The notes beneath the pieces were generated by a model. That model saw only the letters and a list, made by a program, of their open reading frames with translations, ran no database searches and had not been told where the DNA came from. From assembly GCF_038005985.1 (NCBI RefSeq), contig NZ_JBBOUI010000001.1, positions 701,501 through 765,500 on the forward strand: a DNA stretch of 64,000 nucleotides, given 5' to 3'. Shown in pieces: positions 25,129 to 47,720 of this stretch (position 1 is the stretch's first letter; each line of letters opens with the position of its first letter). The position numbers were made by a program, and so were the translations under genes. This DNA comes from Solibacillus sp. FSL R7-0682. GTDB taxonomy: Bacteria; Bacillota; Bacilli; Bacillales_A; Planococcaceae.

Positions 25129-25194
25129 TTGTACGTAGGAGCCGGTCATAACATAGCAATCAGTAAGATTAAACAACGTAAAGACTTTGACGTC

Positions 25195-25603: not shown

Positions 25604-25605
25604 AG

Positions 25606-25743: not shown

Positions 25744-25749
25744 TGATTT

Positions 25750-26163
25750 ATGCGATTCGCGCTAGTTTCAATCGTTAAAATTTATGACGTCGATTTTACG
25801 TCGATGATCCTATACGAATCAGACGAGCAAGGAATTTGGAATTGTATCGCAGAAATCGCAAAGCCTTTCGAAATTGACGATATGCTCGACGATTTAGCGG
25901 AGTATAAAGTATCGGAAATACAGACTGATAGCCAAACGATATACCGTGAGCTAGTAAGCGCAAAAATTCCGGTTATATATCGCAAGGAAGTTACCGATAC
26001 GCGTGAACTAATTGGACGTAGCGAGGAAATGTTAATCGAATTATTTGAGTTAAATTTAGAGCCTGCCGTCGTTTTACCTCGATGGAGGCTTTTTATTATC
26101 ACTAAATTAGAGAAACTCATTCAAATTTTAAAAACGAGAGGATTAAAACACAATGACAATTAA
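25750..26163 (+). CDS. Hypothetical protein of island E1
   Basis: 137 residues, acidic N-terminal two thirds (MILYESDEQGIWNCIAEIAK, MLDDLAEYKVSEIQTDSQTI) and a basic end. No family recognised. An imperfect hairpin with GGCTTTTTATT (about 26060-26095) lies within its 3' part, so the last 30 residues may not be original coding sequence. AAGGAG precedes the ATG. Confidence 0.5.
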   Translation: MRFALVSIVKIYDVDFTSMILYESDEQGIWNCIAEIAKPFEIDDMLDDLAEYKVSEIQTDSQTIYRELVSAKIPVIYRKEVTDTRELIGRSEEMLIELFELNLEPAVVLPRWRLFIITKLEKLIQILKTRGLKHNDN

Positions 26164-26845
26164 AATTCAAGATTACAAATTATTAGAGGATTTCAAAGCA
26201 GAGCAACACGAGCGAGCAGAAAAGTTTGCACAATATTCATTAGATGCACAGGCAGCACGCTCTCGATTAACTGAGTTACAGACTCAGTACGAAATCACGT
26301 TCACACGGTCGGTAAAAGAAGGAACAGACGTTACGGCGGAACTCCTTAAAATTGACCAGGACATAGAGGTTCAGCGGGAGGTAGTCGCACGACGCGAGCG
26401 AGATTTACGATTAGCACACCAAGCAATGCCCGAAACAAAGATTTCATCAGTTGACGTTGTAGCACGATATAAGCCTGATTTTGCGGACGGTGTACGTACG
26501 GAATTTGAGGAGCTAGTCAATCCGAAGTTACAACTTGCTCGCGATTTGATTTTAAGCGCAATCGTAGACGGAAAAGAATACTCAGCGGCATATCAGCCAA
26601 TTCACGAGGAAATTGCCGAGCATGTGAAGGGTAACCACAAACGAGGATTAACGCCACACATCATGTTACAGAATCATCCGACTGATAATGCGAGGATTCA
26701 TAACGCAGTAGGCGTCGTAGCTGGCGTTCGAAAGGTATTAGAGGAAGTGTCGCAGTTCACACACGGACAAAAACCTCACGACTATACGTATATTGACGTA
26801 GCGCCAACGGTAAAAACAAAAACAACAGCAAAGGACGGGAAATAA
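26153..26845 (+). CDS. Phage-type coiled-coil protein, function unknown
   Basis: 230 residues. A helical N-terminal half with long charged heptads (AQAARSRLTELQTQYEITFT; VQREVVARRERDLRLAHQAM) and a compact C-terminal half. GAGAGG precedes the ATG; it overlaps the previous gene by 11 bp. It lies with the next three genes in an order that resembles a structural module, but no capsid or tail motif can be named. Confidence 0.55.
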   Translation: MTIKIQDYKLLEDFKAEQHERAEKFAQYSLDAQAARSRLTELQTQYEITFTRSVKEGTDVTAELLKIDQDIEVQREVVARRERDLRLAHQAMPETKISSVDVVARYKPDFADGVRTEFEELVNPKLQLARDLILSAIVDGKEYSAAYQPIHEEIAEHVKGNHKRGLTPHIMLQNHPTDNARIHNAVGVVAGVRKVLEEVSQFTHGQKPHDYTYIDVAPTVKTKTTAKDGK

Positions 26846-26846
26846 T

Positions 26847-27125
26847 ATGAGCAGATATAACGAGCAATTAGACGTATACAACGCAACAAAAGCAGCACAC
26901 GGAGGCAAGACGGTTAATTACCGAGTCCTCGAAAACGGACTAAGACAACGCCTTGCAAACGGTGAGATCACGAAAGACGACGTAGCCGTAGCTTTTGATG
27001 TAGCTAAACGATTGCAAACGGATCAAGCGCGAGTTATGTATGCCAGCGTCAAGCGAGCAGCAGAGAGCATCGTCGAGGAAACACCGGACGACACGCCCGA
27101 TAATGAAGAACAACCAACGGAATAA
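26847..27125 (+). CDS. Phage-type hypothetical protein, 92 aa
   Basis: Begins one base after the preceding stop, so the two are coupled. Helical (YNATKAAHGGKTVNYRVLEN; LQTDQARVMYASVKRAAESI) with an acidic, Pro/Thr-rich tail. No family recognised. Followed by a terminator. Confidence 0.55.
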   Translation: MSRYNEQLDVYNATKAAHGGKTVNYRVLENGLRQRLANGEITKDDVAVAFDVAKRLQTDQARVMYASVKRAAESIVEETPDDTPDNEEQPTE

Positions 27126-27135
27126 ACGGAGTTAC

Positions 27136-27160
27136 GGCAGCCATTGTGCTGCCTCTTTTA
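27136..27160 (+). terminator. Rho-independent terminator
   Basis: GGCAGC (27136-27141) pairs with GCTGCC (27148-27153), then TCTTTTA. Confidence 0.75.
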
Positions 27161-27193
27161 ATAAAAAACACATACGAATGGAGACGATTATTA

Positions 27194-27493
27194 ATGTTAC
27201 AAATTATCAATCACGAAAACGGTACTATCATCAGCGGAGACGAGGCTTTATTACAACGATTACCCGAAGGATTTGACCCTACAACGGTCGATTTAACAGA
27301 CTTCCGTATTGACGCACATAATTTAGCGATTGTTTATGATTACGCCACGTACAAAGGCTTAGAGGCGATTAAATTTTATAGCGGACTAAAAGCGGCTTAC
27401 ATCAAGCAGCAAGAGTTGGCGCTAGCATCGCGTAGGCCGGTATTAGTCGAAGAAGAAGTAGAAGAAACGGAAGAAGAAACGGAAGAAGTTTAA
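27194..27493 (+). CDS. Phage-type hypothetical protein with acidic tail
   Basis: 99 residues. Starts MLQIINHENGTIISGDEALL; the last 17 residues are nearly all Glu/Thr (EEEVEETEEETEEV). Position just before the tape-measure gene and size recall tail-assembly chaperones, but this is weak. GGAGA at 27179-27183 supports the ATG at 27194 over the upstream start. Confidence 0.5.
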   Translation: MLQIINHENGTIISGDEALLQRLPEGFDPTTVDLTDFRIDAHNLAIVYDYATYKGLEAIKFYSGLKAAYIKQQELALASRRPVLVEEEVEETEEETEEV

Positions 27494-27498
27494 TTCCA

Positions 27499-27537
27499 AG
27501 CGCTACGCTCGTTTAATTACGACTAGCGCTTTTTATA
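27499..27537 (+). terminator. Rho-independent terminator
   Basis: AAGCGCTA pairs with TAGCGCTT around a 20-nt loop, then TTTATA. Confidence 0.7.
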
Positions 27538-27632
27538 TTATGCGGAGAAATCCGCACCAACGATTAATTTTGGTATGTCGACGTAGTAAAATTCCCCCAT
27601 TGTTGTTGTACGTGTGGAAAGCGTATAACTAA

Positions 27633-27672
27633 CCGCCATTGCGCAAGCGGTCTATAAAATTGCGCTTTTTTA
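27633..27672 (+). promoter_or_regulatory. Attenuator-like pair of exclusive hairpins before the tape-measure gene
   Basis: GCGCAA (27641-27646) can pair with TTGCGC (27660-27665), which is followed by TTTTTT and forms a terminator. Alternatively CCGC (27633-27636) pairs with GCGG (27647-27650), enclosing GCGCAA and opening the terminator. Confidence 0.5.
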
Positions 27673-27698
27673 TTTATAAAACGAAAGGAATGAACGAG

Positions 27699-28775
27699 AT
27701 GAATACATTAGAAAACGATTTAAACATTATCGGGACGCTATCGTTACTTGCAAATCCGTTAGCGTTAATTACTGCCGGTATTGCCGGAGCTGCCGTTGGC
27801 CTCAAAGCCTTATACGACAACAGCGAATCGTTTAGAGGAGTAATCGACGGAATTAAATCGAAGGCTATGGAGCTATGGAGCGCCTTTAAGACCGGAGGAG
27901 CCGGTGGATTGTTAGATTCGCTATTCGGAGGCGGTACTGCGGAAAAGGTAGCCGGTATTGTCGATAAAGTAAAAGCTAAATTCAGCGAGTTACAAGGCGG
28001 ATTCTCAATCGTGAAAACGGCGCTTGCTAATGGTTGGACCGTTATTTCTGACGTATTCTCCAACTCCTGGACGCTTATACAGCCGATCTTTTCGGGATTA
28101 TGGTCGATGTTAAAAGTTGTCGGTGAGTACGCTCAAATTGCATTTAATAACATCATCGCGCCAGCTCTTAGCTTCGTAATGCAATTATTCTCGACTTTAT
28201 GGGCAATCGCTAAGCCGATTTTAACGATGATTGGCGGTCTATTCGAGGTTTTAGGCGCAGTCGTTACGGTAGTATGGAAGAATATTCTAGCTCCGTTAAT
28301 GGAGTTCGTTACTACTGCATTCTCGAACGCGTTTAACAACCTTAGCGGAGTGCTAGAAATCGTTGCCGGATGGTTCGAGAAAGTCGGGGGCTGGGCAAAT
28401 ACCGCTAAGGATTATCTGAGCAAATTCGCAGACGTTATTGCCGGAATTAAGTTGCCGGATTGGGTAACGAGTGGAATTAGTACGGTTGTAACTACGGTAG
28501 GGAAAGCTATTGGTGCCGGTACAGTAGATGGCTCGCATTATCACGGCCTTGATTACGTAAATAAGGATAATTATATTGCTAGACTTCATAAGGGAGAACG
28601 AATATTAACGGCACAGGAAAACAAAGAGTATTCCGGTAAAGGCGGAGCTAGCGGACTAGGCGGAGGTATTACAGTCAATATGCACGGAACTGTAGTCCGA
28701 GAGAACGCTGACATCGATAAAATCGCGATGGCACTTGCGAAAGCAATCGAGAGTGAGCGGTTGCAACGTGGTTAA
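27699..28775 (+). CDS. Shortened phage tail tape-measure protein
   Basis: 358 residues, against 700-1500 or more for typical siphophage tape measures. Hallmarks are alternating hydrophobic and amphipathic segments (LALITAGIAGAAVGLKALYD; FSNSWTLIQPIFSGLWSMLK; WKNILAPLMEFVTTAFSNAF), Trp/Phe-rich repeats, and a C-terminal end with KGERILTAQENKEYSGKGG plus ITVNMHGTVVRENAD, typical of the family. The N-terminal several hundred residues are missing, yet the frame is intact with a good ribosome site (GAAAGGA, 27683-27689), so it looks like an expressed short version. It could compete with a helper phage's tape measure or be a deletion remnant. Confidence 0.7.
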   Translation: MNTLENDLNIIGTLSLLANPLALITAGIAGAAVGLKALYDNSESFRGVIDGIKSKAMELWSAFKTGGAGGLLDSLFGGGTAEKVAGIVDKVKAKFSELQGGFSIVKTALANGWTVISDVFSNSWTLIQPIFSGLWSMLKVVGEYAQIAFNNIIAPALSFVMQLFSTLWAIAKPILTMIGGLFEVLGAVVTVVWKNILAPLMEFVTTAFSNAFNNLSGVLEIVAGWFEKVGGWANTAKDYLSKFADVIAGIKLPDWVTSGISTVVTTVGKAIGAGTVDGSHYHGLDYVNKDNYIARLHKGERILTAQENKEYSGKGGASGLGGGITVNMHGTVVRENADIDKIAMALAKAIESERLQRG

Positions 28776-28789
28776 GGAATAACGAAAAG

Positions 28790-28823
28790 GCAGGCGCTCA
28801 TTAACCGAGTGCTTGCTTTTTAT
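28790..28823 (+). terminator. Rho-independent terminator
   Basis: GCAGGCGCTC pairs with GAGTGCTTGC (two G-U), then TTTTTAT. Confidence 0.7.
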
Positions 28824-28846
28824 ATTGACGAAGGGAAGGCGATTAA

Positions 28847-29362
28847 ATGAAACGATCACCAACGATTGAGGAGTTAAAGGCGGATATTGAGCGATTGGAC
28901 ATCGAGATTGATGCCGCGAATATGGAGCGAGGCTATTGTCAGTTGCCATTTCCGCCAGTGAGTGACGTATGGGGCGAGCAAGCCTATATGTCTGTATTAC
29001 CGGACATTCAACGCTATTTGACCGACTATGCAGCGCTAGTATTAACAGCTAAGGACGTTGTAGCGATTGGGGAATCCGATAAAGTTAACGGATGGATCGC
29101 ATTATTAAACGTTGCAGCAGAGGCAAAAGACGTCGTATTATCGGCTACTTGCACCGGTTTGGTGTCATTACTACGAATCACTCAAACGGGTAACAGCCGT
29201 ATGTATTATACGAATTTAGCGGATATGTTTTTAGGAATTGCGTCAGAAGTTCCGTATAAAGTCTACGATAAAGAACGATATACCGGCGACTATGACGGCA
29301 ACTTTGATGATTATTACCAACAAAAAAGAACGGAGATGGAACTATGGTACAACGTAAACTAG
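28847..29362 (+). CDS. Hypothetical phage-type protein
   Basis: 171 residues. Starts with a charged helix (IEELKADIERLDIEIDAANM), then YMSVLPDIQRYLTDYAALVL and WIALLNVAAEAKDVVLSATC. No named family. It overlaps the TerS-like gene by 19 bp, which suggests coupling. AAGGGAAGG precedes the ATG. Confidence 0.55.
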   Translation: MKRSPTIEELKADIERLDIEIDAANMERGYCQLPFPPVSDVWGEQAYMSVLPDIQRYLTDYAALVLTAKDVVAIGESDKVNGWIALLNVAAEAKDVVLSATCTGLVSLLRITQTGNSRMYYTNLADMFLGIASEVPYKVYDKERYTGDYDGNFDDYYQQKRTEMELWYNVN

Positions 29363-29754
29363 ACGATATTTTAAAGGATTTAACACCACAACAGGCGCAA
29401 GCAGCGGAGCTTATGTATGAGAACGATTTATTACCGCCTTCCAAGCGTAAGAGTATGCTTGATATTGCGAATGAATTAGAGGTAACTGACCGCACTTTAC
29501 GCAACTGGCGCAAGCTACCGGCTATGCTCGAATACAAAGCAGCAGTAACTACGCAGTTATTAGCGGAAAATCGTACGCGAGTAATGGCGGCTTTATTGAA
29601 GGAATGTGAGGCGGGTAATGCTTCGATGATGAAACTTTATATGCAAGCGGAAGGTATGCTCGTAGATAAAGCGGAAATCGAAGTTAAGAGCGAGAAAGTC
29701 GATGAATCAGCGGTTGCTGCGAAGTTGGCAGCGTTGCAACAACGATTTAAATAG
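29344..29754 (+). CDS. Small terminase subunit-like helix-turn-helix protein
   Basis: 136 residues. The N-terminal helix-turn-helix (LTPQQAQAAELMYENDLL; MLDIANELEVTDRTLRNWRK) is followed by an alpha-helical oligomerisation region (LLAENRTRVMAALLKECEAG) and a C-terminal AAKLAALQQRF. This is the layout of the phBC6A51-type terminase small subunits. In satellites a private TerS redirects the helper phage's packaging motor to satellite DNA. No large subunit gene is present in E1, which is consistent with that role. The start at 29344 follows ACGGAGATGG and overlaps the preceding gene. Confidence 0.7.
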   Translation: MVQRKLDDILKDLTPQQAQAAELMYENDLLPPSKRKSMLDIANELEVTDRTLRNWRKLPAMLEYKAAVTTQLLAENRTRVMAALLKECEAGNASMMKLYMQAEGMLVDKAEIEVKSEKVDESAVAAKLAALQQRFK

Positions 29755-29767
29755 TCGATACTTTATC

Positions 29768-29833
29768 GTACTAAAGCGCTATAAATGGCGGTAATTCAAC
29801 GATTTAGCGTACTAAAGTGTTATAATGGCGGTG
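29768..29833 (+). repeat. Duplicated promoter-like element
   Basis: GTACTAAAGCGCTATAAATG (29768) and GTACTAAAGTGTTATAATGG (29809) are near-copies 41 bp apart, each ending in a -10-like TATAAA/TATAAT followed by GGCGGT. The second runs into a terminator hairpin. Confidence 0.6.
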
Positions 29834-29862
29834 GTGACTTCGGTTGCTGCCGCTCTTTTTTT
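29828..29862 (+). terminator. Rho-independent terminator
   Basis: GCGGTGG pairs with CTGCCGC (two G-U), then TCTTTTTTTA. Confidence 0.65.
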
Positions 29863-30139
29863 ATGCGCATTTATAGGCGATGGGTGAGCGATTGAGATTC
29901 CGTATATTTCCGAGAATTGACGTAAAACATCGGCTGCACGGTGCTGGCGCGTGTCTACCTCCGAAAACAAATCGAAGTCTGACAATTTACATATACGGAT
30001 TATAGCGGAGGTCAGACGTCTATATGTACGATATTGTATCTTTTCATACATTCAAACCGTTGACAATAGCGCATCCTTACGATAAACTAACGTTATAATA
30101 CATCAAATGTACGATAACGTATGAAAAGGAGCGGTATTT

Positions 30140-30694
30140 ATGACGAATGAAAAGAATGTACAGCCGTTAAGATCGGCAGAAGAAATCGCGGATATGCGTT
30201 GGGCTTTATCGAGATATGCAACGGCTAGAGACGTATTTATGTTTAACTTCGGAATAAATACCGGCTTACGAGTAAGCGATATTGTACCGCTTCAAGTATC
30301 GGATATTAGAGGTAAGACGCATCTAACGATTAAGGAACAGAAAACAGCGAAGTCAAAGCGCTTTGCTATTCCGAAGGCTTTGCGCCAGGAGATAGAGGAG
30401 TATACACGCGGTATGGATAGCGGTGAGTATCTGTTTGCTAGTCGTAAGGGAAACGGCTATATATCGACTACACAGGCGTATAGAGCGCTACAAAAGGCTG
30501 CTGACGCTTTAGGACGTAATGATATTGGAACGCACACAATGCGGAAAACATTCGGTTATCATCATTACAAGCGGAATAAAGACGTGGCGATGCTGCAGCA
30601 GCTGTTCAATCATGCGGCTCCGTCTATTACGTTAAGGTATATCGGTATTACTAACGATGAAATAGACGCAACGTTAGAAGATTTCAGCTTATAA
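30140..30694 (+). CDS. Small tyrosine recombinase (catalytic domain only)
   Basis: 184 residues, lacking the N-terminal core-binding domain. Catalytic residues are present: Arg in NTGLRVSDIVPLQ, HTMRKTFGYHHYK (HxxR), FNHAAPSITL and Tyr in RYIGI. Such short XerD-like enzymes occur in Bacillus phages; this one may act in multimer resolution or assist excision at the right end of E1, opposite the full-length integrase. AAAGGAGCG precedes the ATG, and a promoter-like TTATAATAC lies about 40 bp upstream. Confidence 0.8.
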   Translation: MTNEKNVQPLRSAEEIADMRWALSRYATARDVFMFNFGINTGLRVSDIVPLQVSDIRGKTHLTIKEQKTAKSKRFAIPKALRQEIEEYTRGMDSGEYLFASRKGNGYISTTQAYRALQKAADALGRNDIGTHTMRKTFGYHHYKRNKDVAMLQQLFNHAAPSITLRYIGITNDEIDATLEDFSL

Positions 30695-30708
30695 CTAAAC
30701 GAAGTAAA

Positions 30709-30740
30709 GCGATCAGCTATCGGAGTTGGTCGCCTTTTTT
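30709..30740 (+). terminator. Rho-independent terminator
   Basis: GCGATCAGC pairs with GTTGGTCGC (G-U pairs included), then TTTTTTG. Confidence 0.65.
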
Positions 30741-31123
30741 GTGCTCAAATCCGCTGACTCCCAAGCGCCATATTCTGTACGGTCGCATCTGCTGTCCGAG
30801 AATCGTAAGCACCAAATTGAAAACACGCCGATTTTCTAACGTTTACCCAGGACGTACCCTTAACGTAGAACTATCGCAACCTCTAAAAAATTCCGCTATA
30901 ATTTTTCGAAACTAGCCGGATAACCTTCGCAGATTCGACCTCAGACGCATCGAGAATCGGATAAGCGGGTAGTTGGTCGATTGGATTCGTTTAAACTGCG
31001 TTAATTTTACGTTGGGACAATTGAACGTTTTTCGCATAATAACGCGTTGAGTCACTGTAAAAAGTCGGATGGTATAAACGGAGTTGAGGCGTTATACTTT
31101 GTCCGTAAAGGAGTGTTATAACG
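30741..31123. other. Gene-free stretch near the right end of E1
   Basis: 383 bp with no gene. It contains a CGCTATAATTTTTC promoter-like motif (30893-30907) and, near its end, a ribosome site for the next small gene. Nothing else is recognised. Confidence 0.5.
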
Positions 31124-31372
31124 ATGCACACACGTAATTTAACTAGCAACCAAGTCCGGAAAGAATTAGGATTAAACGGAAATAGAAGCGGAGTAATTTT
31201 CGATATTTCAAACATGTTATCCGATAGAATCGGGAGTTATGGCGGCTGCAATGGCTTATATTATTCGCAAAAGGAGGTAGCGGAATTGAGTTACGCTTTT
31301 TGGCGAATGAAGAACGAATATGAGATGGCGGCGGTAGTTAACGAAATTTATGATATGTGGTATGCGGATTAG
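31124..31372 (+). CDS. Small hypothetical protein at the right end of E1
   Basis: 82 residues, starting MHTRNLTSNQVRKELGLNGN with Gly/Tyr-rich middle (IGSYGGCNGLYYSQKEVAEL) and an aromatic C terminus. AAAGGAGTG precedes the ATG. A directionality factor would suit the position beside attR, but no excisionase motif is evident. Confidence 0.5.
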   Translation: MHTRNLTSNQVRKELGLNGNRSGVIFDISNMLSDRIGSYGGCNGLYYSQKEVAELSYAFWRMKNEYEMAAVVNEIYDMWYAD

Positions 31373-31531
31373 TCTTTACAACCGTTTCCATTTAACGTAT
31401 GATGGAGCGTAAGAAGGTCGACTATGCAATGTACGACTATTGAACGGAGCTTGTCCGGTAGTACGCTTATATCATCGTCTCAAATGACGCTACATAGAGC
31501 GATACAACCATACGCTATAATAACGATTGTA

Positions 31532-31563
31532 TGGACGTGGGTTCGACTCCCACCGTCTCCATA
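31532..31563 (+). repeat. attR of E1 / attL of E2: ssrA 3' end fragment
   Basis: Identical over 32 bp to 15071-15102. A 24-bp part (31539-31562) recurs at 46297-46320. No upstream tmRNA body is present here. Confidence 0.9.
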
Positions 31564-31692: not shown

Positions 31693-32862
31693 TTAAATAC
31701 TCATGAAGCTATCGAATTTATTGATGGCTTCTTCTTTTGCTTTTTTGGAAACGTGCGCATAAATGTTCATCGTTGTTTGGATATCCGAATGACCTAAGCG
31801 ATCTTGGACTTCCTTTATGTTTACTCCCGCCTCTAATAAAAGCGAACAATGAGTATGACGAAAGCCGTGCGTCGTAATTTTAGGTAAATCATATTTTTTC
31901 AGAATTTGCTCTAGCCATGTTCTCGTCTTTGTAGGCTGCATTAAGTCATTATTCTCATTACTAAAAACTAGTTGCTTCGGTTGCGTGGTATTTACCCCTA
32001 ACGCAAAGTATTCTTTCTTTTGTAGCTTTTTCCACTCAGATAGGATATTCATCGTTCGGGTATCCATTTTAATAAAACGAGAATCACCAGTCTTAGTATC
32101 CTTTACATAGCGCTTATTGTCTTTTCCGCGTGAAAGCGCCTTATTGATGTGAATCTCATTTGTTTTAAAATTAATGTCTTTCCAGGTGAGGGCCAGTGCT
32201 TCTCCTTTACGCATGCCACTATATGCAAGGAGTTGGAACAGAGCAAAGGCCTTATAATTGTTTTCTTGCTCCATGCATTTCAAGAACTTAATGAGTTGCT
32301 CCCGCGTATAAAAATTCTCGATTTTATCTTCCTTGTCGGCTCGCGACTTTTTGCTACCTTTAGGCATATCTATTAAAGTGAAGGGGTTGGTCTGAATGTA
32401 GCCACGCTTGATGGCAAAATCCATAACCTTTGCAGCATAAGACTTCACCATACGAAAATTGACTAGTTTTTTAGCCCAAGCATCTACATGATGTTGACAA
32501 ATATCCACGTTCATTTTGTCAATTTTATACTGACCTAATGCGGGTAATAAATGATTTTTGAAGATACCAATTGTTTTCACAAACGTACTTTCTTCAACTG
32601 TATTTTCATAATGCTTAACCCATAAATCATAAATATCCTGATAGGTCTCGACTTGCATTTTTCGAAACGTGCCTTTTCCGATTTCAAGTTTGATGCGTGC
32701 AAGTTCTAATTCTGCTTCTTTCTTAGTTTTAAAACCGCTCCGTGTCGTTCGTTGTTCTTTTCCAGTTAAAGGATCTAAGCCGACATAGAACTTAAAGCGA
32801 TATAGTTTCTGTCCATCTTTCCGTGTATAACTTTCAATTGTAGTTGATTTTTGTTTAGCCAT
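31693..32862 (-). CDS. Tyrosine recombinase (integrase) of island E2
   Basis: 389 residues, phage/Tn916-type integrase with three parts: an N-terminal arm-binding domain (YTRKDGQKLYRFKFYVGLDP, FKTKKEAELELARIKLEIGK), a core-binding domain (YQDIYDLWVKHYENTVEEST) and the catalytic domain with SGMRKGEALALTW, THGFRHTHCSLLLEAG, LGHSDIQTTMNIYAHV. The start is set at 32862 by GGAGGG 7 bases upstream; the open frame continues 114 bp further but without a ribosome site. It lies 130 bp from the att core and shares many stretches with the E3 integrase. Confidence 0.93.
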   Translation of the reverse strand: MAKQKSTTIESYTRKDGQKLYRFKFYVGLDPLTGKEQRTTRSGFKTKKEAELELARIKLEIGKGTFRKMQVETYQDIYDLWVKHYENTVEESTFVKTIGIFKNHLLPALGQYKIDKMNVDICQHHVDAWAKKLVNFRMVKSYAAKVMDFAIKRGYIQTNPFTLIDMPKGSKKSRADKEDKIENFYTREQLIKFLKCMEQENNYKAFALFQLLAYSGMRKGEALALTWKDINFKTNEIHINKALSRGKDNKRYVKDTKTGDSRFIKMDTRTMNILSEWKKLQKKEYFALGVNTTQPKQLVFSNENNDLMQPTKTRTWLEQILKKYDLPKITTHGFRHTHCSLLLEAGVNIKEVQDRLGHSDIQTTMNIYAHVSKKAKEEAINKFDSFMSI

Positions 32863-33034
32863 GATAATTCCCTCCATTCCCTTTTCGGAGGCAAGAATAT
32901 GAGGGTTAAATCTACTTTGCCAATAGTCTGTAAACCTTGACATTTCATATATATCACATTGAAATTTGGATATCAACAGAATGTAGATTTAAACCTTACA
33001 AATCTTGCACAGTTATTTTTTATAGATAAAATTC

Positions 33035-37925: not shown

Positions 37926-39335
37926 ATGAACTTAAATTTAGATAGATATAGAATTTGGTTGACTAACAATAAGAATTATTCTAAAGCCACTATAAGCAAT
38001 ACAGTCTCGAGGATGAAAAGGGCAGATAAAATCCTGCCTTGGTTTAATGATATTGTTTATCAGTTTAAATTGGAACAAGAACCGGCATATCAAGAGCTTT
38101 CTTGTTCTGTACGATCACAGATAAAAAAGGCTGTGAAGCTTTATTTCGAATTTATAGAACAAGATTCCGTTATGTTATCAGTAACCCATAAAAAGAATAA
38201 TAAATTAAAAGTATTATCATTATTTTCTAATATTGGTGTAGCGGAAGCATATTTTAAAGACATGGACATAGAGGTTCCCGTTGCCAATGAACTTATAGAA
38301 CGAAGGGCTGAACTATATTCACAAATATATCCTGATACTCACATGATTTGTGGGGATATAACTCATAAAAATGTCTTCGATGATATAGTGAAAGAAAGTA
38401 TAAAAACTGGTGTAAATATCATAATGGCGACACCTCCATGTCAAGGTATGAGTACCGCTGGACCGCAAGAAGATGATGATGAGCGAAACAAGCTTATAAT
38501 TCCTGTGATTGAGGCTGTTAAAGAGATTAAACCCAAATATGTGTTCTTAGAAAATGTCCCCATGTTTTTAAATACCTCTATAGAAGTAAATGGAGAGCAA
38601 GTTTTAATTCCTAATTTACTAAAAAAAGAGTTAGAATCTGAATACAAGATTTCCCAATATATTATCGACACAAAAGATTACTCTGTTCCACAGACACGAG
38701 AACGAGCAATCTTTTTAATGACGCGTAGAACTGAAAACCTAAAAGAGTGGAAGCTCCCAAATAAGGATTCGAAAATTTTGACTATGCAAGATGCAATTGG
38801 GAATTTACCGAAATTAGATCCCTATATAAAGGACATCTCAGAAGAGGAATTGTTAGAAATCTTTCCTCATTTTTATGAGCGCCAGGAAATTGCCGCTAAT
38901 ATTTCAAAATGGCATATTCCTCCCCATCATATAAAGAGGCAGGTTGTAGCGATGCAACATACTCCTACTGGATGTACCGCATTTGATAATAAGGTATTTT
39001 ACCCTAAAAAGGCTAATGGGGAAGCTGTAAAGGGTTTTCGTAACACGTACAAAAGACAAAATTGGAACACCGCTGCTTATACCATAACCATGGATAACCG
39101 AAAAATTTCATCACAAAACAATGTTCATCCAGGAAAGATAGAATATGTAGATGATAATGGCGAGGAAATCTATTCTGATGCAAGGGTTTTGACACTATAT
39201 GAATTAATGATTGTCATGAGTTTGCCAGAAAGTTGGCCAATACCTGAAAACACATCGGAAGCCTTTTTGCGGAGAATTATTGGCGAAGGAATACCACCAC
39301 TATTTGTAAAAAAAGTATTCGATAATATAGACTAG
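37926..39335 (+). CDS. DNA (cytosine-5) methyltransferase 1 of LlaJI-like RM system
   Basis: 469 residues. Residues 1-95 form an extra helical domain (YRIWLTNNKNYSKATISNTV) absent from the second enzyme and possibly DNA-binding. The catalytic part has a variant motif I (LSLFSNIGVAEAYF instead of the FxGxG form), the Cys nucleophile in TPPCQGMS (about 168-175), LENVPMF (motif VI) and the QTRERAIFLM motif VIII. It transfers a methyl group from S-adenosylmethionine to C5 of cytosine. Two such enzymes are expected for an asymmetric target, one per strand. The ATG follows AGAAGGATG. First gene of a four-gene operon; the helical N terminus is a candidate for operator binding. Confidence 0.88.
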   Translation: MNLNLDRYRIWLTNNKNYSKATISNTVSRMKRADKILPWFNDIVYQFKLEQEPAYQELSCSVRSQIKKAVKLYFEFIEQDSVMLSVTHKKNNKLKVLSLFSNIGVAEAYFKDMDIEVPVANELIERRAELYSQIYPDTHMICGDITHKNVFDDIVKESIKTGVNIIMATPPCQGMSTAGPQEDDDERNKLIIPVIEAVKEIKPKYVFLENVPMFLNTSIEVNGEQVLIPNLLKKELESEYKISQYIIDTKDYSVPQTRERAIFLMTRRTENLKEWKLPNKDSKILTMQDAIGNLPKLDPYIKDISEEELLEIFPHFYERQEIAANISKWHIPPHHIKRQVVAMQHTPTGCTAFDNKVFYPKKANGEAVKGFRNTYKRQNWNTAAYTITMDNRKISSQNNVHPGKIEYVDDNGEEIYSDARVLTLYELMIVMSLPESWPIPENTSEAFLRRIIGEGIPPLFVKKVFDNID

Positions 39336-39347
39336 GAGAATTAAGAG

Positions 39348-40487
39348 ATGGGAAAGTTAAATGGTATTTCACTGTTTTCCAATGTTGGAATTGCAGAAGC
39401 TTATATGAATGAACTTGATATTGAAATAAAAATTGCTAATGAGATAGATCAAGATAGAGCTAGATTCTATCAAAATGTATATAAAGATACACATATGATT
39501 TGTGGTGACATTACGGACGATAACATCCGGAGTTCTCTTGTTGAAGAAGCTATTGAAAGAAATGTGGACTTCTTAATAGCCACACCACCATGTCAAGGAA
39601 TGAGTGAGGCTGGATTAAGATTAGAATTCGATCCACGTAATCAGCTTATTTCGTATGCAATTGATGTAATCAAAAGGGTTAAACCCAAGTTTGTATTATT
39701 AGAAAATGTTCCTAAACAATTGACTACTCGTATTAAATACGGCGATGAAATTATTTTGATTCCTGAATATATAAAAAGGGAACTTGGCGACAGTTATCGG
39801 TTTAATAAGAACCCTCTTGTTATGGCAAAGGATTATGGTGTACCTCAATTAAGAGAAAGGAATATATTCTTGCTTGTCAGAAACGACTTGCCATATACTT
39901 GGGAGTTTCCAGAAAAACAGCAAGAAATTACTCTTTATGAAGCTATCGGAGATTTACCGTCTCTTGATCCTAAGCTACGAGATGGAATGGAACTTACTTT
40001 GCAGAAGTTTCCAGATTATGAGAAGAAGCGTAAAGAAGGTCTTGAGGTATCAAAATGGCATTATCCTCCAACTCATTCTTGGAAACAAGTGCAATGGATG
40101 ATGCATACACCTACAGGAAAATCAGCTATATACAATGAAGTTTATTATCCTCAAAAGGCAGATGGCATTCCTGTTAAAGCCCACCATAATCATTATCGTA
40201 GATTGAAATGGGATATGCCATGTAGAACTATCACACAGAATAATGGTGTTATCTCATCTTTAGCTTGCGTTCATCCAGGACGATTGTACAGGAGTGAATC
40301 AGGTGAGGAATTATACTCTGATGCCAGAGTCTTATCTATATATGAGTTGTTGATTGTTATGTCATTGCCACTTGATTGGCAAATTCCAGATTGGGCTAGT
40401 GAAACTTTTATTCGAAAAGCGATTGGTGAGGGTATACCTTCAAAATTAATCAAAGAAATCATGACTGCATTAATTCAGCAATTATAA
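39348..40487 (+). CDS. DNA (cytosine-5) methyltransferase 2 of LlaJI-like RM system
   Basis: 379 residues, clearly paralogous to the first: SLFSNVGIAEAYMNELDIEI, TPPCQGMSEAG with the catalytic Cys near residue 81, VLLENVPKQL, PQLRERNIFLL, and a matching C terminus (DARVLSIYELLIVMSLPLDW). It lacks the N-terminal extension. The target recognition region differs, consistent with the partner strand of an asymmetric site. It starts 12 bp after methyltransferase 1, with CTAGGAG before the ATG. Confidence 0.88.
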   Translation: MGKLNGISLFSNVGIAEAYMNELDIEIKIANEIDQDRARFYQNVYKDTHMICGDITDDNIRSSLVEEAIERNVDFLIATPPCQGMSEAGLRLEFDPRNQLISYAIDVIKRVKPKFVLLENVPKQLTTRIKYGDEIILIPEYIKRELGDSYRFNKNPLVMAKDYGVPQLRERNIFLLVRNDLPYTWEFPEKQQEITLYEAIGDLPSLDPKLRDGMELTLQKFPDYEKKRKEGLEVSKWHYPPTHSWKQVQWMMHTPTGKSAIYNEVYYPQKADGIPVKAHHNHYRRLKWDMPCRTITQNNGVISSLACVHPGRLYRSESGEELYSDARVLSIYELLIVMSLPLDWQIPDWASETFIRKAIGEGIPSKLIKEIMTALIQQL

Positions 40488-40499
40488 GGAGGATATGGG

Positions 40500-42551
40500 A
40501 TGGGGAAGATAGTGATGCCCAAAAATAGTGCACTGTTGAACGAAATTGAATCTGTTTTGCACATATACTATGAAGCTAACGATTGGTTGACAAATACCTT
40601 ATATAAAGAACGTTTAAAGGAAATGATTGGCCCTGATCAATACCAATCTTCTTATACTAAAAAGGCACAGATTACATCTTACTTTGGCTTCACAGTTTGG
40701 GAAGATATTAATAACGCACAGTCAAGAAGAAGGATCACTGAATCCGGTAAAAAAATGTATGAAGCAATTACAGAAAAAAGTACTGATAAAATACAGGATG
40801 TATTAATGAATGCATTAGAAACTGTGAAGTTTGGTCGACACAACTATGGCTGTCCGGAAAGTGACTCTGATGTGGAACCCCCTGCACTGTATATTAGAGC
40901 TATTTTAGATTTGGGTTATTTGACATATAAAGAATTTGCATTTTTACTTTGGAAACTTGAAGATGTGGGTGGTAACTATACAGACACTTTGGATGAATTA
41001 AGACAACTAAGAAATCAAGGTCCTATAACATTGAGTGAAGAAGCTAATAAATATTCAGATTGTAAGCCAATTATGATACTGATGCGTTGGGGATTCTTGG
41101 ATGAAGACGATGACACATCGGGTGGTAAACATATAATTATTAAACCGGAAGTACTTCGCAAGTACGGGAATCGCCTGAAAAATTTAAAAATATACAATAT
41201 CGATATGGACGTTGCTGAACCTATTGTCGGCGATGACTTGTTTGTGCACCCAGTGGAAAGTATTTACAAGACAAGTATTAAATCAGATTTCCAACATAAT
41301 AGAATTATCTTTGGTGCCCCAGGAACAGGTAAAAGTTATGAACTAAATCGAGATAAGGATACCTTGCTTAAAAATGGTGGTGAGTATGAGCGTGTGACTT
41401 TCCATCCCGACTATTCGTATGCAAACTTTGTTGGAACTTACAAGCCTACGATGTTGGATCCTGTAAATGATCATATTGTAAGCGAAGATGAGAAGGGGGT
41501 TTTATCTATTCTATTGGATGATAAGACGGCCCAAGAAAAATATGACTTGCTATATGACAAGTTTAAAGAGGGTGATTTAACTCGCCTACCACTTTTACTG
41601 GGATTATATAATGATGACAAGTTTAAAACTAAGAAAAAAGATGGCTCTAATGCTAGTGGTGATAATAGCGTTGAACGAAATCATGGTCGAGCGATTAGGC
41701 CATATGTAAATCTGATATCAAATAAAAAGTCTGCTAGTGAAATTGTATATGAATATGTCCCTGGCCCATTTATGAGGACATATGTTAAAGCACTTAAAAA
41801 TGCTCAGACAGATAATCCTAAGCCATATTTATTAATTGTTGAAGAAATCAACAGAGCAAATGTTGCAGCCGTATTTGGTGATGTATTCCAGTTGTTAGAC
41901 CGTGATGACGATAATGTTAGTGAATATGCTATCCAAACATCTGAGGATATTAAAAAGTACCTTGCTAAGGAATTAGGTGGTAAGCCTCAAGAGTATTCTG
42001 AAATCAAAATTCCAAATAATATGTTTATATGGGCAACTATGAATAGTGCTGACCAAGGTGTATACCCTATGGATACTGCGTTCAAACGTAGATGGAATTT
42101 TGACTATCTTAGTATAAATCATAATGAGAATGACATTAAGGGGAACTTTGTTACTATGGGTAGCGAGGTCTATCTTCGTGAGATAGAATGGAATGAACTG
42201 CGTAAGGCAATCAATAATACACTTTCTTCTTATAAAATTAATGAGGATAAGCTATTAGGACCTTATTTCCTTTCAAGAAAAGTCGTAGTTCCAAGAGCGG
42301 GGAATAAAATTAACGCTGATATCTTTATTTCTGCCTTCAAGAGTAAAGTTCTAATGTATTTATTTGATGATGCTGCAAAACAGAAAAGAGCATCTTTATT
42401 TGATGGATGTAAGGACACAACGAAATATTCCTCCATTTGCGAAGAATTTGATAAGCGTGGTGTAGAAATTTTCTGTAAGGAGATTAGGGAGAAGTTTCCA
42501 AGGGCTACGGCTATAGCAGGAGTTGCTGAATCTGTAGAGGAGTATAAATAA
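40500..42551 (+). CDS. McrB-like AAA+ NTPase subunit of LlaJI-like restriction enzyme
   Basis: 683 residues. N-terminal region (about 1-265) of unknown fold, presumably DNA recognition, then a McrB-type AAA+ module: Walker A GAPGTGKS (about 272), Walker B LLIVEEINRANVAAVFGDVF (about 444) and the McrB-specific sensor ATMNSADQGVYPMDTAFKRR (about 511). It would use GTP or ATP to translocate on DNA and activate the nuclease partner. It begins 12 bp after the methyltransferase with AGGAGG 7 bases upstream, and its last base is shared with the next start. Confidence 0.88.
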   Translation: MGKIVMPKNSALLNEIESVLHIYYEANDWLTNTLYKERLKEMIGPDQYQSSYTKKAQITSYFGFTVWEDINNAQSRRRITESGKKMYEAITEKSTDKIQDVLMNALETVKFGRHNYGCPESDSDVEPPALYIRAILDLGYLTYKEFAFLLWKLEDVGGNYTDTLDELRQLRNQGPITLSEEANKYSDCKPIMILMRWGFLDEDDDTSGGKHIIIKPEVLRKYGNRLKNLKIYNIDMDVAEPIVGDDLFVHPVESIYKTSIKSDFQHNRIIFGAPGTGKSYELNRDKDTLLKNGGEYERVTFHPDYSYANFVGTYKPTMLDPVNDHIVSEDEKGVLSILLDDKTAQEKYDLLYDKFKEGDLTRLPLLLGLYNDDKFKTKKKDGSNASGDNSVERNHGRAIRPYVNLISNKKSASEIVYEYVPGPFMRTYVKALKNAQTDNPKPYLLIVEEINRANVAAVFGDVFQLLDRDDDNVSEYAIQTSEDIKKYLAKELGGKPQEYSEIKIPNNMFIWATMNSADQGVYPMDTAFKRRWNFDYLSINHNENDIKGNFVTMGSEVYLREIEWNELRKAINNTLSSYKINEDKLLGPYFLSRKVVVPRAGNKINADIFISAFKSKVLMYLFDDAAKQKRASLFDGCKDTTKYSSICEEFDKRGVEIFCKEIREKFPRATAIAGVAESVEEYK

Positions 42552-44008
42552 TGAAATCCAAGTTTGTACGTGAACAGAAACGATATACACAGGAAAACCT
42601 ACGAAACATTTTTGATTGTACAGCTGAAAAGACCGTTACTATCATAAAAAAACTGAAGGAATACGGTGTCTTGAAAGCTGTAAAAGCAACTGATGTGCAG
42701 AAGGATATGTCTGACCTAATCGATAAAGATATTGAAGTAATCGATGTTGAAGTTGGAGAAAAGGAGCTTCTTTATGTTTTTACATTTGTGGGTGTCATTA
42801 CGGTTTCAGATTGCATCTTAAAATGCTATCCGAAATATATAAGTAACGTTGCTCCTAAAACAGAATTAAAGCAAATCATAAAAGTTCTGGAAAGATATAA
42901 TTCCAAGGAACAAATTATTCGAATGTATAATGATAGCGAAGAAGGTAATTCATTTAACCTACTCTCAGTGATGATTTATCTATTAAATGACTACCATGAA
43001 AATGGCGCTTACACGAATACACAAGATATAATTGAAACTAATGGTTCGGGTGAAATACTGTGGGACAAGACGATAAATGAGACCTTTACTTATATCAGCA
43101 ATAATCGCCCATATTACATAGAAATGTTTACACAAAAACGTATTAATGATGATTTTGATTACTTTAAAAGGCTCCACGAATCAATTATCTCTATTTGTTC
43201 AAGAGAACTTCAAGATGCTGATTTATTGGATTTGTTTGACATACTACCGGTTGAAGTGTCTGATGAAGAACTAGATGATTTTGAAGAAATAGATTATATA
43301 CTTTACCGTATACAGAATGAATTGAATTTGCAGTTTAATACAAGAAAGCAGCTATTACTGAAGACGATATATGCCTATATTGCGCATAGTAGCGGTCTTG
43401 CAGATATTGATTGTTTCACTATGTTTGGTACAAACAGTTTTAATTTGGTATGGGAAAAAGTGTGTGCGGAAGTTCTGGACAATCAATTGCAGACCCCACT
43501 TGGCTCACTCCCTATTTCTTTAGCAGATGGATACAATCCTAGTGACTTGCTCATTTCACTAATAGATAAACCAAAGTGGAATGGCTATAAGCATGATGAT
43601 TCTGAGTTTCAAAAAATCGCTAAGGAAACCCTCGTTCCAGACCATGTGTCAATCACTAAGAGGAATAACTTATATCAGTTCATTATATTTGATGCCAAAT
43701 ATTATAATATTCAACTTGAGCAAGGAAAAAAACTACGAGGACAACCAGGAATTGGCGATATTACAAAGCAGTACCTCTATCAGTTGTCTTATAAAAAATT
43801 TGTTAATGACCACGGAATTCAAGATATTAAGAACTGTTTTTTGATGCCAACCGAACAACAAAATATTATTGTCAAGGGATATGTCAATATTGAAATGTTA
43901 GATGCTCTCGGGTTAGAGAACATACAAATACGACAATTACCTGCAGGAATGGTTTACTCACACTATTTAGCTAATGAAAAACTGGATATAGAGCTTCTTC
44001 ATTTATAA
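42551..44008 (+). CDS. LlaJI/McrC-like restriction endonuclease subunit
   Basis: 485 residues. Pattern of the LlaJI R2 family: winged-helix-like N terminus (YTQENLRNIFDCTAEKTVTI), helical middle (LLKTIYAYIAHSSGLADIDC, NLVWEKVCAEVLD) and a PD-(D/E)XK nuclease core in the last third with NLYQFIIFDAKYYNIQLEQG (D-x-K at about 380) and LRGQPGIGDITKQYLYQLSY. It cuts unmethylated target DNA together with the McrB-like partner. Start ATG overlaps the preceding stop (TAATGA). The whole four-gene set is intact, so the system is probably active. Confidence 0.85.
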   Translation: MKSKFVREQKRYTQENLRNIFDCTAEKTVTIIKKLKEYGVLKAVKATDVQKDMSDLIDKDIEVIDVEVGEKELLYVFTFVGVITVSDCILKCYPKYISNVAPKTELKQIIKVLERYNSKEQIIRMYNDSEEGNSFNLLSVMIYLLNDYHENGAYTNTQDIIETNGSGEILWDKTINETFTYISNNRPYYIEMFTQKRINDDFDYFKRLHESIISICSRELQDADLLDLFDILPVEVSDEELDDFEEIDYILYRIQNELNLQFNTRKQLLLKTIYAYIAHSSGLADIDCFTMFGTNSFNLVWEKVCAEVLDNQLQTPLGSLPISLADGYNPSDLLISLIDKPKWNGYKHDDSEFQKIAKETLVPDHVSITKRNNLYQFIIFDAKYYNIQLEQGKKLRGQPGIGDITKQYLYQLSYKKFVNDHGIQDIKNCFLMPTEQQNIIVKGYVNIEMLDALGLENIQIRQLPAGMVYSHYLANEKLDIELLHL

Positions 44009-44384: not shown

Positions 44385-44615
44385 GTGAGTCAATATAATG
44401 AACTTAAGAAGCTAATCGAAGAGCAACAAAAGGAAATCGATAAGTTATAAGCAGATAAGGCAGATGCCAAAGGAGATAATGTTGCTTCTTCACATCAAGA
44501 TGCATGGAAGTGGGCAAAAGAAAAGGGCTTATTTGATGGGAGTAATCCAGTAGGTGCATTTACTCGTCAACAAGCAGCTACTGTTTTTCAGCGATTCATT
44601 TTTCTAAAGTGCTGA
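44385..44615 (+). pseudogene. Short gene with in-frame stop, SLH-like tail
   Basis: GTG start with AAGGGGG upstream reads MSQYNELKKLIEEQQKEIDK, then TAA at 44448-44450, and the same frame continues QDAWKWAKEKGLFDGSNPVG and FTRQQAATVFQRF to TGA at 44613. The second part is like the S-layer-homology-type module found at the end of some phage and cell-wall proteins. With the stop it cannot make the full 76-residue product. Confidence 0.55.
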
Positions 44616-44979: not shown

Positions 44980-45738
44980 GTGTTTGCAGGGTTCAATTTA
45001 TCATCTAATGAGAGTTTTAGTAGTTATCAAAGATTGGGAGAAGAAATCTATAATAAAAGTAAAATTGTGGTGCGAAATAGTTTAGATAAATATTTTGATA
45101 CTAATGGTAGTATAAATGGAACTAATTTACAAGAACACTGGTTCCCTCAAATAGATGCGGACATTTTTATTTCACACTCTCATAAAGATGAAAAAATGGC
45201 AAAAGGTTTAGCTGGCTGGCTTTACAGCAATTTCGGATTAACAGTATTTATAGATTCATGCGTTTGGGGGTATTCTTTAGATCTACAAAAAGAAATTGAT
45301 TATAATTTCTGTCGACTTGATGGGAAGGAATCAACATATAGTTACGAAAAGGTTATGTACTCGACCAGTCATGTGCATATGATGCTTTCAACTGCTCTTA
45401 CTAAGATGCTAGATAAAAGCGAGTGTGTTATTTTTCTCAATACTCCTAATTCACTTAATACAAAAGACACTATTAATAATACTGAGTCGCCTTGGATATA
45501 TCATGAAATTGCGATGACTAAATTAATAAATAAAAGGAAATTATCTGAGTACAGAAAAGGTATAATAAAAGAAGGTATGTTTAATGAAAATAGAGATTTG
45601 AACATTAAGTATGATATTGATTTAGACCATTTGGAAGACATAAATATTAATGATCTTAGTAATTGGGCTAAAATTAATCAAACTACGATTGCCGAATACC
45701 CTTTGGATATTTTATATCGAAATAAAAATATACTCTAG
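44980..45738 (+). CDS. TIR-domain protein, probable anti-phage effector or signal enzyme
   Basis: 252 residues. A 55-residue leader is followed by a TIR-like domain: IDADIFISHSHKDEKMAKGL (58-77), WLYSNFGLTVFIDSCVWGYS, and SPWIYHEIAMTKL, whose Glu176 matches the catalytic Glu of NAD-cleaving TIR enzymes. Bacterial TIR proteins degrade NAD or make cyclic ADP-ribose-type signals upon infection. The gene starts at a GTG with AAAAGG 10 bases upstream; an earlier GTG at 44971 has poor spacing. It is 13 bp from a small membrane-protein gene, the likely partner, at the cargo end of E2 after an RM system. Confidence 0.8.
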   Translation: MFAGFNLSSNESFSSYQRLGEEIYNKSKIVVRNSLDKYFDTNGSINGTNLQEHWFPQIDADIFISHSHKDEKMAKGLAGWLYSNFGLTVFIDSCVWGYSLDLQKEIDYNFCRLDGKESTYSYEKVMYSTSHVHMMLSTALTKMLDKSECVIFLNTPNSLNTKDTINNTESPWIYHEIAMTKLINKRKLSEYRKGIIKEGMFNENRDLNIKYDIDLDHLEDININDLSNWAKINQTTIAEYPLDILYRNKNIL

Positions 45739-45751
45739 TCGGAGGAGCATT

Positions 45752-46156
45752 ATGGAAGAAAATAAAATTCAATATCTTCAATTGATTCAAAATGTTATTA
45801 CGCGTATGGCATCAAATTCATTTATGTTAAAAGGTTGGACAGTCACTTTAGTAGTTGGTCTATTAGCGTTTGCTAATGTTTCAGAAATGGAATCAAAATA
45901 TATAATTCTAGCTTTAGTTCCAGCTATAATGTTTTGGGTATTGGATGGCTTTTTTATTTATCAAGAGAAATTATATAGAGATTTATATAACAATGCTATT
46001 AAGCTTAAAAACGATGAGATTGATTTTTCGTTAAATCCGATACCATTCAAAAAGCTAAATAAAAGAAGTTGGTTTAAAGGTATTTTCTCTAAAACACTTT
46101 GGATATTTTATTTGCCCATTATTGTAGTTATTATTTGTGCTTTAATATTATTCTAG
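45752..46156 (+). CDS. Small three-helix membrane protein paired with TIR protein
   Basis: 134 residues with three hydrophobic segments at about 27-42, 50-69 and 115-134, separated by a charged loop of about 45 residues that would lie on one face of the membrane. The motif TRMASNSFMLKGWTVTLVVG near the N terminus looks conserved in type, and I have an impression of similar proteins beside TIR genes, but cannot verify it here. The layout recalls SLATT-type effector proteins, which are thought to form pores or sense signals. GGAGGAG precedes the ATG at 45752, 13 bp after the TIR stop. Confidence 0.7.
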   Translation: MEENKIQYLQLIQNVITRMASNSFMLKGWTVTLVVGLLAFANVSEMESKYIILALVPAIMFWVLDGFFIYQEKLYRDLYNNAIKLKNDEIDFSLNPIPFKKLNKRSWFKGIFSKTLWIFYLPIIVVIICALILF

Positions 46157-46232: not shown

Positions 46233-46296
46233 GTAATTTGTAAAATACCTAAAAAAGCTGTGTAGACACTGACATCAAGCCATTATTGGAAAAAGC

Positions 46297-46320
46297 GGGT
46301 TCGACTCCCACCGTCTCCAT
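46297..46320 (+). repeat. attR of E2 / attL of E3: third ssrA 3' end fragment
   Basis: 24 bp starting GGGTTCGACTCCCACC, identical to 31539-31562. It is shorter than the E1 copies because the bases before it differ. Confidence 0.88.
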
Positions 46321-46448: not shown

Positions 46449-47591
46449 TCAAGATTCTGAGTTTAAATACGTCACAAATTTATTAATTGTATCGTTTTTT
46501 GCACGCTTTGATAGGTGCGTATAAATGTTGAGCGTTGTTTGCACATCTGTGTGACCTAATCGTTCTTGTACTTCTTTGACACTTGCACCGGCTTCGAAAA
46601 GTAAAGAGCAATGCACATGACGAAATGAGTGAACATGTGTATAGGGCAAGCTGTAATTATCGATGATTTTCATGAGCCACTTTCTAGGAACTGTTTGCTG
46701 CAACAAGCCATTTTGTTCGTTTGTAAAAATTAATTGGCTTTTGTCACTCGCATTTGGAAATTTGCCTTGCTGAATCTTTTTCCATTCTGATAAGATGCTG
46801 CATGTTTCATCATCGATTAAAAGCTGGCGTGAAGTATCGGTTTTCGTTGATTTAATATAAAGCTTGTTATTTTTACCTCTCGAAAGAGCTTTTGAAATGA
46901 ACAATTCGTTTGTATCAAAATTTAAATCCGCCCAGGTTAATGCAAGTGCCTCACCTTTACGGATACCTGAAAATGCAAGCAGATAGAAAAATGCGGTGAT
47001 TTGAGCGTTACCATATTGCTTTAAACACTGTAGAAAGTAAATTAGCTGCTCCTTTGAATAGTAGTTAACCTCAGTATCTAATACAGTAGAAGCTTTGGTT
47101 TTTGGAAGATCCACTAGCTTGAAGGGATTAGAACTGATGTACTCACGCTTAATTGCAAAATCTATCACTTTAGATGCATATGTTTTAACCATTCGAAACC
47201 TTTTTAGTTTCAAGGAACAGTCATCAACAAAGCTTTGGCAGATTGCTACACTCAGCTTCTCTATTCGGTAGTGACCTATTGCAGGTAAAATGTGATGCTT
47301 GAAAATGCCAAGGGTTTTGACAAAGGTACTTTCTTCAACAGTTCTTTCGTAGTGCTGAATCCAGACATTATATATATCCTCGTATGTTTCAGTTTTAGGC
47401 TTCTTATATTCCCCATTCTTAACTTCAACTCTTAATTGAGCTAATGCTAGGGTAGCTTCTTTTTTCGTTAGAAAACCACGTCTAGTAACGTGAATTTGTT
47501 TGCCTGTTTCGCTATCCATTCCTAAATAAAGTTTAAACATATAGTAGGTTTTGCCATCTTTTTTTGTATACGATTTAATATTGTCTTTCAT
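46449..47591 (-). CDS. Tyrosine recombinase (integrase) of island E3
   Basis: 380 residues, close relative of the E2 integrase: arm-binding domain (YTKKDGKTYYMFKLYLGMDS), core-binding region (YEDIYNVWIQHYERTVEEST), catalytic Arg in SGIRKGEALALTW, HSFRHVHCSLLFEAG, LGHTDVQTTLNIYTHL. Same distance and direction relative to its att core as in E2. GGAGG before the ATG at 47591 decides the start. Just outside, a tandem TCTGGCTA pair (46424-46442) replaces the ACCGATG pair of E2, so the two integrases probably have separate arm sites. No excisionase gene follows it, unlike E2. Confidence 0.92.
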   Translation of the reverse strand: MKDNIKSYTKKDGKTYYMFKLYLGMDSETGKQIHVTRRGFLTKKEATLALAQLRVEVKNGEYKKPKTETYEDIYNVWIQHYERTVEESTFVKTLGIFKHHILPAIGHYRIEKLSVAICQSFVDDCSLKLKRFRMVKTYASKVIDFAIKREYISSNPFKLVDLPKTKASTVLDTEVNYYSKEQLIYFLQCLKQYGNAQITAFFYLLAFSGIRKGEALALTWADLNFDTNELFISKALSRGKNNKLYIKSTKTDTSRQLLIDDETCSILSEWKKIQQGKFPNASDKSQLIFTNEQNGLLQQTVPRKWLMKIIDNYSLPYTHVHSFRHVHCSLLFEAGASVKEVQERLGHTDVQTTLNIYTHLSKRAKNDTINKFVTYLNSES

Positions 47592-47720
47592 TGAAATGCC
47601 TCCTAGAACCATACAGGGAAACTAGGGTACAGTTAATTTTGCTATTAACTATATTGTTAGTATAGCTGATAAAAAACCTTTTCCCAATAAATAAACTTTC
47701 TTTATTTTGGTAGCATTTAA

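Follow-up and report, generated by a model that had tools for sequence, protein, structure and literature searches.

The window analysed here, a stretch of 64,000 nucleotides from Solibacillus sp. FSL R7-0682, contains two adjacent genes encoding a TIR protein and a small membrane protein. The TIR gene (44980..45738, + strand) encodes a 252-residue protein of the ThsB type and begins with GTG. Its open reading frame opens with another GTG, at 44971, of which GTG 44980 is codon 4, and we chose the latter as the start because the codon aligned with it is Met in all 33 of the other proteins in a 34-member TIR alignment that includes the window TIR. The membrane protein gene (45752..46156, + strand) encodes 134 residues and belongs to the PDC-M50A family; we refer to the protein and its relatives as M50A. 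The two genes are separated by 13 bp (45739-45751), and within this gap, just 5' of the ATG at 45752, lies GGAGGAG (45741..45747, + strand), read from the sequence as a likely ribosome-binding site. This layout agrees with a first-pass annotation of the DNA, which had described a TIR protein with an apparent catalytic Glu followed 13 bp later by a 134-residue, three-helix membrane protein with a charged loop.

The codons of an S-P-W-I-Y-H-E motif, which runs from Ser170 to the catalytic Glu176 of the TIR protein, lie at 45487..45507 (+ strand). Ser170, Trp172 and Glu176 were invariant among 23 aligned TIRs, and Glu176 was kept in 34 of 34 TIRs in a separate alignment. The PADLOC ThsB models matched the protein far beyond chance, the best being PDLC00430 (7.6e-76), and the protein has the features of a Thoeris ThsB, a TIR with a catalytic Glu. 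A PHROG family of unknown function also matched (1.6e-61), and Pfam and NCBIfam gave nothing above cut-off. The structural model had a pLDDT of 80. Sequence searches found no convincing solved relative and the fold search gave no match at E<=0.001; its best rows were chains of RAD51 complexes with probabilities of 0.1 or less, and TIR structures appeared as weak rows: EcThsB2 (E 0.24, probability 0.77), TLR6, TLR1, SARM1 and BcThsB. A TIR_2 search of the host genome was insensitive: it failed to detect the window TIR and picked up a single weak TIR at another place. Within a phylum sample of 398 genomes, the host was the only one in which a TIR of the window type was found.

The AlphaFold2 model of M50A was predicted with high confidence (mean pLDDT 95) and has three main helices (residues 3-41, 48-84 and 114-133), which we interpret as membrane passes, and shorter ones in the loop. 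Nine K/R and five D/E residues fall within 71-113, the charged loop of the earlier description. By the positive-inside rule basic loops face the cytoplasm, which puts the 71-113 loop and the N terminus on that side. The match to the PADLOC PDC-M50A model (PDLC04686, 7.3e-46) is far beyond chance, and a PHROG family of unknown function matched at 1.8e-38. Pfam and NCBIfam gave nothing above cut-off, no recognisable ligand-binding domain was seen, sequence searches found no solved homologue and the fold search gave no match at E<=0.001. Comparison with a viral structure library gave weak rows only, including a DUF2270 protein (TMq 0.69, E 1.2).

A possible kinship is with the octameric 8xMP family (PF24838), which matched 8 of 90 M50A proteins weakly (best 8e-4) and the window protein not at all. 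An hhalign comparison of M50A with 8xMP gave E 9e-4 over residues 45-127 with a probability of only 22. As other membrane families match more M50A members with similar strength (DUF3278 in 37/90, best 0.0021; DUF2270 in 15/90, best 0.0029), we regard this kinship as a lead only. Elsewhere among the loci collected, an 8xMP-family gene is directly followed by a gene for a 128-residue TIR (L146:1417-2312), which repeats the layout with a different family of membrane protein. Kinship to the two-helix SLATT effectors was also considered and rejected: hhalign against six proteins of SLATT_5 (PF18160), the SLATT family compared, aligned four columns with a probability of 0.7.

The two genes come last in the cargo of an element, E2, bounded by copies of a repeat of the tmRNA 3' end. 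The left copy (31537..31561, + strand) was found by repeat search and the right copy lies at 46295..46319 (+ strand; 0 expected in 100 shuffles), 138 bp beyond the end of the M50A gene. Near the left end lies an open reading frame named by eye as an integrase-like gene (31693..32976, - strand). Upstream of the pair within E2 is a restriction-modification cluster (37926..44008, + strand) of two m5C methyltransferase genes and two restriction-enzyme genes with PADLOC MTase_II and REase_II matches, which may be BsuMI-like with McrBC-type subunits. The assignment of the pair to the cargo end of E2, after a restriction-modification system, thus stood. A decayed gene end with a stop (44400-44615), lysin- or surface-layer-repeat-like by eye, separates the restriction genes from the TIR gene. 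Another stretch bounded by tmRNA repeats (15101-31561) precedes E2, so that two elements stand one after the other at the tmRNA gene (window 14748-15100, 31537-31561 and 46295-46319), and E2 is followed on its right by one more integrase-like gene (46449-47612). No fourth copy of the repeat was found elsewhere in the window or in 60 kb downstream when up to three mismatches were allowed.

The host genome was also searched for known Thoeris effectors. STALD (PF18185), which marks the SIR2-SLOG ThsA of type I, was not found in it, with the control record W01 scoring 6.9e-65, nor was ThsA_Macro (PF20016), which marks the TM-macro ThsA of type II, with the control record W02 scoring 8.3e-59. The statement that the pair lacks a SIR2 or macro partner was therefore borne out. 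From the restriction genes to the next integrase, the ORF list of the window has no other ORF of appreciable size, which bears on the caspase-like effector of type IV. Among 16 genomes of the genus, M50A was found in one, the host itself; with the ten of 398 genomes in the phylum sample (see below), this is a patchy spread that suits mobile defence cargo.

M50A relatives were examined in three sets: the best 80 of 354 relatives that carry one search pattern in a species-genome collection, 22 opened loci from the 136 plasmid and three phage records with an M50A match, and 12 loci from viral contigs. By phmmer, a TIR lay somewhere in the locus in 66/80 genome, 20/22 plasmid or phage and 12/12 viral cases, and a same-strand TIR lay within 150 nt of M50A in 62/80, 18/22 and 11/12, respectively. 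The corresponding value for other ORFs of at least 250 residues was 20/224, a rate that is inflated because these ORFs were drawn from the same M50A loci. One locus (L093) was not scored as adjacent by the script owing to a nearer opposite-strand TIR ORF, and has a same-strand TIR 16 nt away. The first-pass annotation had named co-occurrence of the two families as its check and rarity of the pairing in other genomes, joined to no effect on phage growth, as one outcome that would count against it. In these sets the pairing was frequent, both as counted above from M50A and as counted below from the TIR.

Of the 14 genome loci lacking a phmmer TIR, five had a TIR-type neighbour by Pfam: L033 (CAP12-PCTIR), L073, L098, L075 (LRR-Roc-TIR) and L095 (below cut-off). 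The M50A partners in L034 and L036 were judged TIR-like from their closeness to that of L033. In the remaining seven no TIR was found by phmmer, Pfam scan or inspection (L053, L062, L083 and L102, together with L080, L086 and L099, whose neighbours were read only). The M50A neighbour in L053 is a DUF4062 protein, and in L080 the contig ends after M50A. The L075 partner is a protein of 1171 residues with an NLR-like LRR-Roc-TIR layout, encoded directly after the M50A gene (L075:4407-7922).

The pairing is widespread. M50A hosts include archaea (L011, L017) and Patescibacteria (L061, L089), and Bacillaceae relatives such as L026-L028 and L030 have the same TIR-M50A arrangement; among relatives generally the two genes occur in either order. 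Pairs are carried by a Vibrio phage, by plasmids and by IMG/VR contigs, and two pairs from E. coli plasmids had close copies in 10 and 23 of 5426 E. coli genomes. In the 14-kb Vibrio phage record PQ189363.1 (order Vinavirales) the pair lies at 1347-2635, beside an integrase gene; the record annotation carries a ThsB note on the TIR and none on its M50A partner. Over 30 loci, the distances among TIR proteins are correlated with those among M50A proteins (Mantel r 0.64, with 0/2000 permutations as high). The TIR partners of M50A also fall into widely differing classes, contrary to what would be expected if M50A answered to one dedicated ligand.

Searching from the other side, with the TIR alignment alone as query, gave 14 viral loci, three of which (L186-L188) were already in the M50A set. 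M50A lay in the same gene cluster as a window-type TIR in 11 of the 14, including two (L182, L183) in which a short TIR intervenes. One of the others (L185) is a lone TIR with M50A absent, and the other two (L189, L190) are cut off by the contig end, which falls within the TIR or less than 170 nt from it. Single-sequence searches of the viral contigs found nothing. In the phage collection the TIR and M50A each matched the same three Vibrio records and no others. The TIR subfamily was present in 121 plasmid records. From 60 listed rows we opened seven plasmid loci, picked for having no M50A match among those listed, and four of these proved to have a divergent M50A (L175, L177, L178 with broken frames, and L179).

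The other three opened plasmid loci, each a 7.7-kb stretch, had the same TIR subfamily and no M50A. In L174 a ThsA_Macro gene (TM-macro ThsA, 286 residues) lies on the opposite strand between TIR genes, and L176 has a SIR2-STALD ThsA and a second TIR. L180, from the Klebsiella plasmid NZ_PP376100.1, has a SLOG-patatin protein and three further TIRs. This protein (L180:1785-3401), encoded among the four TIR genes, carries a CBASS phospholipase annotation, the 7.7-kb stretch has no annotated cyclase, and the protein has the look of one more effector occupying the ThsA position. As the TIR subfamily found beside M50A elsewhere adjoins known Thoeris effectors without M50A, M50A appears, from gene neighbourhoods, to fill the ThsA slot.

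The family is wider than the pairing. In the phylum sample 11 of the 398 genomes matched M50A, one of them falsely (L172, a 308-residue transporter-like protein, which was dropped), leaving ten real cases with the host included. At the ten M50A loci of this sample outside the host, a TIR was next door in four (L163, L170, L171 and L173) and no TIR was found in six (L164-L169) within flanks of about 1.5 kb on each side, less in some. This ruled out a constant association of M50A with TIR, and given these six loci M50A extends beyond TIR systems. The six proteins form one subgroup by eye. In L164 a DUF499 gene lies one small ORF away from M50A, and a gene judged methylase-like by eye is also a neighbour. 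Hence, the high pairing rates apply to the branch of M50A that is similar to the window protein and has the search pattern.

A further variant involves HIT domains, which bind nucleotides. The M50A of L019:3042-4064, which has a short TIR beside it, carries a HIT domain fused to its front end, and a separate HIT protein neighbours M50A, again with a short TIR, in L012:4100-4546 and L017:4000-4434. PADLOC calls the HIT protein ThsC2. A HIT domain near M50A was seen in only these three scanned loci, all plasmids, and in 0/80 genome and 0/12 viral loci. Given the nucleotide binding of HIT domains, the HIT-M50A combination parallels TM-macro ThsA, and the L019 fusion suggests a nucleotide input to M50A.

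How the pair relates to named systems can now be stated. The composition of PDC-M50 (M50A plus M50B) was taken from the PADLOC model names. The window pair resembles it in having M50A as the membrane half (7.3e-46) and a TIR as the partner, but M50B is a short TIR (PDLC04688, 162 model positions) whereas the window TIR is the 252-residue ThsB type, and the M50B model gave no match to it at E<=1. The short TIRs of L006, L012, L017 and L019 do match M50B. PDC systems are described in passages of one paper as unpublished candidates of Payne et al. (PMC11811056), and in passages of another as products of a guilt-by-embedding approach, with validation pending for most in the core set (PMC12988326).

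The pair resembles type II Thoeris in combining a ThsB-type TIR with a membrane-acting partner, and the same TIR subfamily stands beside ThsA_Macro in L174. It differs in that M50A lacks a macro domain, has 134 residues rather than the 286 of the L174 protein, and has three predicted helices in place of the two-helix TM domain given for type II ThsA in passages of PMC11204291. With type I it shares the TIR subfamily, which adjoins a SIR2-STALD ThsA in L176, but the host genome has no STALD match. Types I, II and IV are covered in the Thoeris passages available, and from this numbering there is presumably a type III as well. Neither 'type III Thoeris' nor 'PDC-M50' was found in the literature searched, the scope of which left out most subscription papers and all preprints. 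If the type III effector is M50A, the system already has a name, and this is the main risk to novelty.

The pair is thus none of Thoeris types I, II and IV and not exactly PDC-M50, and both halves are named in PADLOC. The first-pass statement that no named system could be matched with certainty needs amending to this extent: the halves are a PDC-M50A and a ThsB-type TIR, and what is absent is the exact PDC-M50 pairing with M50B. Judged from sequence, the pair is a variant of a listed, unvalidated PADLOC candidate and a relative of Thoeris.

Passages of PMC12847820 list three signals that Thoeris TIRs make from NAD+: 3'cADPR for the SIR2-SLOG ThsA, His-ADPR for the TM-macro ThsA and N7-cADPR for the caspase-like effector. 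For TM-macro ThsA, membrane damage following nucleotide-induced oligomerisation has been proposed (passages of PMC11204291). We consider it probable, with appreciable room for doubt, that the window genes form a Thoeris-like abortive-infection pair in which the TIR provides the signal and M50A is the membrane effector. By its slot and by the expected chemistry, the simplest reading of M50A is as the membrane-acting effector of a Thoeris-like pair that lacks ThsA. The TIR would sense phage infection and would convert NAD+ to an ADP-ribose-type signal. That signal, or perhaps the activated TIR itself, would trigger M50A, which would probably oligomerise and then breach or depolarise the membrane. 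This would stop phage growth with death of the infected cell. The two-component system of TIR and membrane executor proposed in the first-pass annotation is in part supported: the association of the genes seen from both directions and the exchange of partners in the ThsA slot point to it. Against the effector reading count the lack in M50A of a recognisable ligand-binding domain with which to sense a signal, the variety of its TIR partners, the six phylum-sample loci with no TIR within about 1.5 kb, the finding of a window-type TIR in the host alone among 398 genomes, and the limitation of HIT neighbours to three plasmid loci.

A different division of labour has M50A as a membrane anchor or sensor that clusters the TIR, with the TIR killing by direct depletion of NAD+, as some bacterial TIRs do according to passages of PMC12847820. 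The absence of a recognisable ligand-binding domain from M50A and its several TIR classes as partners would suit generic docking. However, known effector types replace M50A beside the same TIR subfamily in L174 and L176, some M50A relatives have no TIR nearby, and the HIT-M50A fusion of L019 suggests a nucleotide input. We think this division of labour unlikely, while giving the idea some weight. Much less plausible is a toxin-antitoxin-like arrangement in which M50A restrains the TIR and keeps it inactive. That the genes are short, separated by 13 bp and found in both orders among relatives would fit this, but the window-type TIR lacks M50A in L174, L176 and L180 and stands alone in L185, and M50A in turn occurs without a nearby TIR. 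It seems very improbable that the two genes are cargo with no present function, either decayed or carried as passengers, for although the DNA just upstream has a broken remnant judged lysin-like by eye and M50A was found in 0/15 other genus genomes searched, both frames are intact, the catalytic residues are conserved, the ribosome-binding site is good and the arrangement is kept in the Bacillaceae relatives (L026-L028, L030).

The preferred reading of M50A as effector can be extended beyond this host, and we do so only tentatively, as a conjecture that may well be wrong. M50A may be an all-purpose minimal effector acting on membranes in prokaryotic TIR immunity, a protein of about 130 residues and three helices, possibly an oligomeric gated pore, that occupies the ThsA slot with several TIR classes, a receptor-like LRR-Roc-TIR protein included, in bacteria and archaea, and so represents a further Thoeris type, one lacking ThsA. 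If this is true, one small membrane protein would be the executioner of many TIR systems now annotated as lone ThsB. The pair would also serve as a minimal model of TIR-signal action at a membrane, and its compactness would help in the search for new NAD-derived signals.
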